From: Ignavibacteriota bacterium
GTDB lineage: Bacteria > Bacteroidota > Ignavibacteria > UBA10030 > SZUA-254
DNA length: 64,000 nucleotides
Reading direction: 5' to 3'
Assembly (NCBI GenBank): GCA_025358305.1
Contig: JANYJZ010000027.1
Coordinates: forward strand, 62,001 to 126,000
Within the stretch, counting starts at the first letter, position 1, and every line of letters begins with the position of its first letter. This document shows positions 35,716-37,980 of this stretch, in pieces. The notes under the pieces were generated by a model, which saw only the letters and a list, made by a program, of their open reading frames with translations, had not been told where the DNA came from and searched no databases. The position numbers and the translations under genes are program-made.

Positions 35716-36015
35716 ATGGCCGCTGACGGAAAAAGCATCAAAGTAAAGATCTTCGGTTCTGAATATCCACTTCGCGGTGAAAGCGAGGAACTTACGAAGA
35801 AGGTCGCGGGGTACGTGGATCAGATGATCAGCACGATCCACGACAAGATCCCCGAGCAGCCGCCGCTCACCGTTGCGGTCCTCTCCGCGCTGAATATCAC
35901 GGAGGATCTCTTTAAGGAGCGGGAGCGCGCGAAGGCGCTTACCTCCCTTCTGGAAAGCGAAGTGACGAAGATTGGCGAGTATCTTGACCGGAGCATGAAC
36001 CCGGAAGCAGAGTAG
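35716..36015 (+). CDS. zapA: Cell division protein ZapA
   Basis: This 99-residue protein bundles FtsZ filaments at midcell. The N-terminal beta strands SIKVKIFGSEYPLRGE and the helical tail with QPPLTVAVLSALNITEDLF are characteristic. The ATG at 35716 gives the standard N-terminus; a further upstream in-frame TTG at 35662 would add unrelated residues. It is followed by the 6S-like RNA and then rny. Confidence 0.92.
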   Translation: MAADGKSIKVKIFGSEYPLRGESEELTKKVAGYVDQMISTIHDKIPEQPPLTVAVLSALNITEDLFKERERAKALTSLLESEVTKIGEYLDRSMNPEAE

Positions 36016-36078
36016 CGTTTCTTTTCTGTTCTTATACATACATGTGCGGCCAGCGATGTATCGATTATAACCGCACCG

Positions 36079-36330
36079 TCAGCCTGCGCCGGTTTAACCG
36101 CCGGCGAAGAGTCAAACATATTAAAGAATCTGACAAGTAACTTTAATAGGGAACTCGACTCATGGGCGTCATATTACGGGCCTCATCCCGCCTCGGCGGG
36201 ATTTGACGGCCAAGCCTCCGGGCCTGGCCGCCAGACAGTGGAAGTAAGAAACGTTCAGGGGAGTACCCACCGTGTCTTGAAAAGAGATTCTTCAATACAC
36301 TAGACTCAACAGGCTGCGGGCGGTTTTTTA
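36079..36330 (+). ncRNA. ssrS: Likely 6S RNA (ssrS), 6S-Flavo-like
   Basis: The 376-bp gap between zapA and rny folds as a long rod. AACCGCC (36096-36102) pairs with GGCGGTT (36319-36325), GAGTC (36109-36113) with GACTC (36303-36307), and AAGAATCT (36124-36131) with AGATTCTT (36285-36292). The last two stems flank a symmetric 10/10 internal loop. Inside lie a large asymmetric bubble and GC hairpins, including a perfect 8-bp stem, ATCCCGCC with GGCGGGAT, at 36184-36201. A T run at 36324-36329 ends it. 6S RNA mimics an open promoter and sequesters RNA polymerase; zapA-adjacent position is typical. Exact ends are uncertain: CAGCCTG (36080) could alternatively pair with CAGGCTG (36310). Confidence 0.65.
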
Positions 36331-36391
36331 TTTATACCCGGGAGTGCGGTTGCTCCAGGGTGGTCTTCTTGGGTTCTTTGGAGAGAGAGCA

Positions 36392-37957
36392 ATGCCTGAA
36401 CTATCTACGTTTCTTCCCGCTATTATCGTCTGTGCCGGCATATCGTTTGCGCTGGGTTGGTACCTCAACGTCCGCAGGAGCAAACAGAAGATCGACAATG
36501 CTGAGGAACGGGCGAAGAGCATCCTCGCGGACGCCGAGAAGGACGCTCTCAATCTCAAAAAGGAAAAGCTTCTTGAGGTGAAGGACGAGTGGTACAAGAA
36601 GAAGCAGGAGTTCGAGCAGGACGCCGCTGCCAAACGCAGCAAGCACCAGACGTTCGAGAAGCAGCTGCAGGGCCGGGAAGACAACCTCGAGCGGCGCGTT
36701 GACCTTCTCAACCACAAGGAAAAAGACCTGGAGACGAGCAAGCGGACGCTCGACGATAAACTTCGCCAGGCCGACGAGAAGAACACCCACATGGCGAAGC
36801 TGATCCAGGAAGAGAACGTCAAACTGGAGCGCATCGCGAGCACGTCGCGCGAGGAAGCGAAACGAATACTCCTCGAAAACCTCACCAATGAGACGAAGTC
36901 CGAAGCGGCCCAGATGCTGAAGGACCTCCGGGACGTGGCCCGCGCCGACGCGAAGAAGGAAGCCCAGAAGATCATCATCCAGGCGATCCAACGCACGGCC
37001 GCCGATCACTGCGTCGAGACGACCGTGAGCGTGCTCCACATTCAGAACGACGAAATGAAGGGGCGCATCATCGGCAAGGAGGGACGGAACATCCGCGCGT
37101 TCGAGGCGGCCACGGGAGTGGACGTCATCGTCGACGATACGCCTGAAGCCGTCATCCTTTCCGGATTCGATCCGCTGCGCCGAGAGGTCGCGCGCATCTC
37201 GCTTGAACGCCTCATCGCCGACGGCAGGATCCACCCGGCCCGGATCGAGGAGGTCGTCGAAAAGGTCAGACTAGAACTCGACGAGGAACTCATCCACACG
37301 GGCGAGAACGCACTCCTCGAGGCGGGTCTGCACGGCGGGCATCTCGAACTCATCAAACACATCGGCAAGATGAAGTACCGTTCGAGCTACGGCCAAAACC
37401 TCCTGGCACACAGCCTCGAAGTGGCCCACCTCGCCGGGCTCATGGCCGCCGAACTCGGCCTCGACGTGTCTTTGGCGAAGCGCGGCGCGCTCCTCCATGA
37501 CATCGGTAAGACGGTCGACAAGAGCGTCGAAGGGCCCCACGCGCTTCTCGGCTTCGACCTCACCAAACGCTTCGGCGAACATCAGATCGTTGTGAATGCC
37601 GTCGGCGCCCACCATGATGACATCCCGATGGAGCATCCCATCGCTGCCCTCGTCCAAGCGGCTGATGCGATCAGCGGCGCGAGACCCGGGGCGCGGCGCG
37701 AATCCGTGGAAGGATACGCAAAACGGCTGGAACGCCTTGAGAACCTCGCGAAGTCCTTCGAAGGCGTTGCCAATACGTACGCCATTCAGGCGGGCCGGGA
37801 GATCCGCGTGATCGTCGAGCACGACAAGGTCGACGATGCGATGGCAGACCAGCTTGCGCACGACATCGCGAAAAAGATCCAATCGGAAATGGGCTACCCA
37901 GGTCAGATCAAAGTGACGGTCATTCGGGAGACGAGATCTGTCGCGTACGCAAAATAA
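36392..37957 (+). CDS. rny: Ribonuclease Y
   Basis: This 521-residue membrane-anchored endoribonuclease starts mRNA decay. Domains in order are an N-terminal membrane helix (about 5-25), a long coiled coil (about 30-190), a KH domain with GRIIGKEGRNIRAFE (about 213-227), and an HD domain with HSLEVAHLAG and LLHDIGKTVD supplying the metal-binding His-Asp pair. The ATG at 36392 gives the usual short periplasmic start and is preceded by GGAGAGAGAG. It follows the 6S-like RNA and ends at a strong terminator. Confidence 0.96.
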   Translation: MPELSTFLPAIIVCAGISFALGWYLNVRRSKQKIDNAEERAKSILADAEKDALNLKKEKLLEVKDEWYKKKQEFEQDAAAKRSKHQTFEKQLQGREDNLERRVDLLNHKEKDLETSKRTLDDKLRQADEKNTHMAKLIQEENVKLERIASTSREEAKRILLENLTNETKSEAAQMLKDLRDVARADAKKEAQKIIIQAIQRTAADHCVETTVSVLHIQNDEMKGRIIGKEGRNIRAFEAATGVDVIVDDTPEAVILSGFDPLRREVARISLERLIADGRIHPARIEEVVEKVRLELDEELIHTGENALLEAGLHGGHLELIKHIGKMKYRSSYGQNLLAHSLEVAHLAGLMAAELGLDVSLAKRGALLHDIGKTVDKSVEGPHALLGFDLTKRFGEHQIVVNAVGAHHDDIPMEHPIAALVQAADAISGARPGARRESVEGYAKRLERLENLAKSFEGVANTYAIQAGREIRVIVEHDKVDDAMADQLAHDIAKKIQSEMGYPGQIKVTVIRETRSVAYAK

Positions 37958-37980
37958 CAAGCATGGACTTTAACGATGCG

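Follow-up and report, generated by a model that had tools for sequence, protein, structure and literature searches.

A predicted divergent 6S RNA in the zapA-rny gap of an Ignavibacteria-type bacterium, and a boxA-like motif preceding it in related genomes

In a 64,000-nucleotide stretch of an Ignavibacteriota genome (the window), the intergenic gap between zapA and rny almost certainly encodes the 6S RNA (ssrS) of an Ignavibacteria-type bacterium, a divergent form whose homology is reached by a bridge through related loci. 6S RNA itself is already known, and the RNA of the window is a new, divergent representative; 6S RNA binds the housekeeping RNA polymerase holoenzyme, and synthesis of pRNA sets it free. 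The 6S-type identity, which an earlier note on this DNA had put forward, is supported because several lines of evidence agree: positional orthology, the order of sequence motifs, the rod-with-bubble architecture, covariation, and the recovery by R1, a covariance model trained solely on the window's relatives, of all 24 loci that are matched by the Rfam 6S model RF00013. The known spread of 6S RNA is extended as a result. Among the same 198 sampled genomes of the phylum, R1 finds the RNA in 106 and RF00013 in 24, which suggests that 6S RNA recorded as absent in many Bacteroidota annotations has likely been missed.

Extent, structure and conservation of the RNA

The zapA-rny gap of the window spans 376 nt and has a predicted folding energy of -144.4 kcal/mol (z -5.5), a stability attained by none of 100 dinucleotide shuffles. 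Its outer closing stem (AACCGC/GCGGTT) sets the ends of the RNA, which is therefore the 261-nt segment given in Table 1 rather than the entire gap. The RNA is single-copy, with one R1 match in its own genome, and lies on the plus strand; reverse-strand matches, where present, score far lower (about 24-41 bits).

Table 1. Features of the zapA-rny region, in window coordinates
Feature	Position	Strand	Basis or remark
zapA	35719..36015	+	upstream neighbour; named by homology and context
boxA-like TGTTCTTA, followed by ATA and TGTGC (36043-36047)	36027..36034	+	one base off the GTTCTTT of the order
6S RNA gene (predicted), 261 nt, outer closing stem to U tract	36069..36329	+	R1 match of 199.6 bits; 89/98 genomes of the order
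Outer closing stem, 5' strand AACCGC	36069..36074	+	pairs with 36320-36325; helix 1: pairing 96.9%, both-side changes at 3 pairs
Extra hairpin arm, family-specific	36087..36106	+	strands 36087-36093/36100-36106
GAGTC	36109..36113	+	pairs with 36303-36307; alternative partner 36157-36161
Inner closing stem, 5' strand AAGAATCT	36124..36131	+	pairs with 36285-36292; helix 2: pairing 99.4%, both-side changes at 4 pairs
Central bubble, 5' strand; by analogy the predicted template side for pRNA	36132..36148	+	left unpaired by the consensus; aligned through L111 with the RF00013 bubble
Upper stem, 5' strand (GGGAACTCGAC...GGGCGT...TTA...CC)	36149..36182	+	helices 3-6, 96-100% paired
Variable apical hairpins	36183..36239	+	sequence and length unconserved
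Upper stem, 3' strand (GG...TAA...ACGTTCA...GAGTACCC)	36240..36268	+	helices 3-6
Central bubble, 3' strand	36269..36284	+	same basis as the bubble 5' strand
Inner closing stem, 3' strand AGATTCTT	36285..36292	+	pairs with 36124-36131
GACTC, 3' partner of 36109-36113	36303..36307	+	full pairing in 11/13 family members
Outer closing stem, 3' strand GCGGTT	36320..36325	+	runs into the U tract 36324-36329
rny	36392..37958	+	downstream neighbour

Much of the architecture sketched in the earlier note was recovered. The nested perfect stems of 8 and 5 bp lie where they had been placed, separated by a symmetric 10/10 internal loop (36114-36123/36293-36302); above them opens a large central bubble of 17/16 nt, and the terminator-like 3' end is a U tract that closes the RNA. 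The description of the fold as a long rod holds for the stems, bubble and upper stem but not for the whole RNA, since in the family of the window an extra hairpin arm is inserted between the closing stems and makes the 6S RNA branched, unlike the textbook rod. This arm folds in 13/13 family members (-8.2 to -17.1 kcal/mol) from unrelated sequences, and is absent in the other families of the order. Likewise, both closing stems named at the outset are present, but the outermost stem had been overlooked. The GAGTC strand of the 5-bp stem can pair fully with the 3' GACTC in 11/13 family members and with the mid GACTC in 11/13 as well, a choice of closing stem that the earlier note offered as a possible release switch; two members support the 3' partner only.

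About 100 Ignavibacteria-type loci keep the order zapA-gap-rny, and none of these gaps is shorter than 224 nt. When the gap was used as a nucleotide query, 31 of 40 relatives gave a match, strongest at gap positions 94-318. Within the order, R1 finds the RNA in 89 of 98 genomes; among the good genomes the figure is 72 of 75. Comparison of the zapA-rny gap among relatives, a test that the earlier note had proposed, revealed compensatory changes throughout the core. In a MAFFT alignment of the sequences of 48 relatives with a 33-pair consensus, 97.3% of cells were paired and 22 of the 33 pairs were altered on both sides, as against 39-49% paired and 2-8 such pairs in slid controls. Cells changed on both sides numbered 192, compared with 58.5 in shuffles, and 0/500 shuffles reached the observed value; the shuffles leave relatedness in, and the MAFFT alignment was not fitted to structure, which makes it a fair test of covariation. 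The stems are thus kept by compensatory change and constitute an evolutionarily real structure.

Identity of the RNA and its predicted activity

The direct model searches suggested in the earlier note returned nothing for the gap: the Rfam 6S model RF00013 had no match there, nor did the 6S-Flavo model RF01685 up to an E value of 10. In Rfam as a whole, no family matched at gathering scores, and the matches obtained up to E 10 were at chance level and were rejected. RF00013 was likewise without a match up to E 10 in the window's own genome, where tmRNA and RNase P were detected. The earlier note would have given up its reading had both a model match and covariation been lacking; no Rfam match was found, but the covariation is overwhelming.

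A bridge to RF00013 is provided by related loci. RF00013 has 24 matches in the 198 phylum genomes, all of them located between zapA and rny, and one (L111) exceeds the cut-off (47.1 versus 46.4 bits). The alignment of L111 to RF00013 places its motifs in the same order as in the window RNA, namely GAAC / GGGAGCCCG-CUC / CAGGCCUC / GUGGAAG / ACCCACCGUGU / GGUUCU. R1, in turn, matches 59/59 test loci, comprising the 24 RF00013 loci, at the same coordinates and with scores of 58-119 bits, and the other 35. When 29 of the new loci that R1 finds in the phylum were checked, 26 proved to be flanked by zapA and rny; of the remaining three, one lies near a contig end. The position directly after zapA, which had been taken as a hallmark of 6S RNA loci, holds in the window, in about 100 relatives and at every RF00013 locus.

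The gap could also be read as something other than a 6S RNA gene. A cis-acting leader or riboswitch controlling rny would account for the fact that in most genomes the RNA immediately precedes rny, and for the U tract at its end. Its closing stem and U tract, however, form only once the entire RNA has been made, and its homology to 6S RNA, visible in the L111 alignment and the R1 matches, argues against such a role. Moreover, two loci (L027 and L028) carry the RNA after zapA with scores of 98-103 bits, and no rny was found in the stretches examined; at L027 (1447-1868) zapA and the RNA are followed by coaE. Since the RNA is kept where no rny was found nearby, we rejected the leader or riboswitch, to which we assign a very small probability. 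Equally remote is the idea that an unnamed RNA of another kind, polymerase-binding or structural, came to occupy the 6S locus and to resemble 6S RNA by convergence. The failure of RF00013 to match the window RNA directly and the extra arm in its family would fit such an origin, but it is sequence motifs, and not shape alone, that are common to the window RNA and the RF00013 matches in the same order, both groups are captured by a single model (58-119 bits), and searches of the window's own genome with RF00013 and R1 yielded no second 6S candidate. A divergent 6S RNA is thus the identity that we favor. The two loci without a neighboring rny belong to genomes G016 and G021 of family f3, in which no rny was found beside zapA and the 6S RNA.

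By analogy with studied 6S RNAs, the RNA of the window would bind polymerase and be released through pRNA synthesis, and the anatomy required for this, a 17/16-nt bubble atop the inner closing stem, is present. The RNA of about 261 nt folds as a rod with two closing stems, a central bubble resembling an open promoter, a long upper stem and variable apical hairpins. Within the bubble the housekeeping sigma-RNA polymerase holoenzyme would be held and blocked; the polymerase could then use the 5' side of the bubble as the template for a short pRNA, and this pRNA would in turn open the inner closing stem, leading to the release of 6S RNA.

A boxA-like motif upstream of the RNA

In 48 flanks of the 6S RNA in the order, no other 7-mer comes close to GTTCTTT in frequency (32 versus 0.44 expected); it lies 27-50 nt ahead of the RNA. 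In a wider set of 81 genomes of the order, 52 have it upstream of the RNA, with 0.7 expected. By family, it was found in 11/13 (f1), 3/3 (f2), 14/17 (f5) and 24/26 (f6) genomes and was absent in f4 (0/21) and f3 (0/1), as well as in the f3 genomes G016 and G021. The copy in the window, GTTCTTA, departs from it by one base. Of 30 16S leaders in the order, all carry the same 7-mer, 106-153 nt ahead of the 16S gene, and it occurs in 0/30 tmRNA leaders and 0/30 rnpB leaders; the start of a 16S gene was not found in the window's own assembly, which leaves the boxA of its rRNA out of this comparison. At the 6S locus the motif, which four families of the order carry and two are without, is often followed by CATA and sometimes by GTGC. 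The boxC-like GTGC is enriched after boxA (9/33 versus 1.9 expected) yet occurs in a minority of loci, and we do not rely on it. The 7-mer of boxA is also found, perhaps by chance, inside the 6S RNA at many loci of the order, at GGTTCTTT on the 3' side of the inner closing stem.

We hypothesize that a longer transcript that includes zapA is processed to yield the 6S RNA, and that polymerase may be carried through this untranslated stretch by Nus-factor antitermination of the rRNA type, a proposal to which we give even chances at best. Its extension to the order, that in most families a single boxA/Nus-factor antitermination acts on both 6S RNA and rRNA, is tentative and falls slightly short of even. 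The boxA reading rests on a motif of 7 bases, of which the window has a copy one base off and which two families are without. At several loci of the Melioribacter/Ignavibacterium type (L063, L072, L080 and similar), the closing stem of 6S RNA starts a few to about 20 nt past the zapA stop codon, a proximity that suggests processing from the zapA transcript. Should the link to boxA prove true, one elongation control would act on rRNA and on a polymerase inhibitor alike, and the amount of the inhibitor, 6S RNA, would be tied to the machinery that makes rRNA.

The main rival to antitermination, which we consider unlikely, is that GTTCTTT is a strand that pairs with AAAGAAY, the 5' strand of the inner closing stem, in an alternative fold of the precursor. 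GTTCTTT is the reverse complement of AAAGAAC, and the predicted duplex has an energy of about -6.3 kcal/mol, but leader and strand do not co-vary: leaders paired with their own strands gave -6.30, as against -6.25 for swapped pairs (P 0.36), a C-to-U change in the strand is followed in 0/13 leaders, and L104 and L071 alter the strand with an unchanged leader. The true 3' partner of the strand does co-vary (-10.6 versus -8.2; 0/5000 permutations as low), and the motif is identical to that of rRNA leaders. Pairing of the leader with the 6S 5' strand was rejected on the absence of co-variation. A promoter element of the 6S gene, which we hold to be no more probable, would suit the distance of 27-50 nt in that this range overlaps the distance of a -35 box. 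Against it, the spacing varies by more than 20 nt, and in 16S leaders the motif is located downstream of a TTGACN-spacer-TATATT promoter, which was found in 15/30 of these leaders (within the 100 nt that precede the motif) and in 19/30 tmRNA flanks. A promoter of this rRNA/tmRNA type close to the 6S RNA was rejected as well, its occurrence in 1/48 flanks being at chance level; rnpB flanks are also without this promoter, so that its absence at 6S alone proves little. Antitermination at a boxA-like element thus continues to be the reading that we prefer for GTTCTTT.

Comparison with known systems

Among the papers searched, none links 6S RNA with Ignavibacteria, although an earlier prediction is possible in Wehner 2014, which, as cited in PMC7366714, predicted pRNAs in Bacteroidetes. 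The search likewise found nothing combining 6S RNA, ribonuclease Y and zapA, and no title or abstract joining boxA with 6S; two papers contain both words in passing.

The RNA of the window resembles 6S RNA/SsrS (RF00013) in the order of its motifs, in its rod of closing stem, bubble and upper stem, in its locus after zapA and in being captured by one shared covariance model. It differs in its length of about 261 nt, compared with about 187, in lying below the reach of RF00013, and in the extra arm of its family. A locus after zapA is the usual context of 6S RNA in beta- and gamma-proteobacteria (PMC7641849), but the downstream gene is rny at the window RNA and ygfA/FAU1 at known 6S RNA. In the same phylum, the 6S RNA of Bacteroides thetaiotaomicron and two classes of pRNA (pRNA and pRNA*) were identified by dRNA-seq (PMC7366714), so that this RNA is expressed and templates pRNAs. 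6S-Flavo (RF01685, PMC2864571) is a diverged 6S-like RNA of Bacteroidetes, whose model, as described above, does not match the window gap.

With regard to the upstream motif, Rho-dependent termination of Escherichia coli ssrS and its processing from a dicistronic transcript, both cited in PMC7641849, make a boxA before 6S RNA plausible. GTTCTTT fits the core GYTCTTT of the boxA found in rRNA leaders and at suhB, whose consensus, GYTCTTTAANA, is gamma-proteobacterial (PMC5725501). Unlike those elements, the motif described here precedes a 6S RNA, and non-coding RNAs were left unconsidered in that study.
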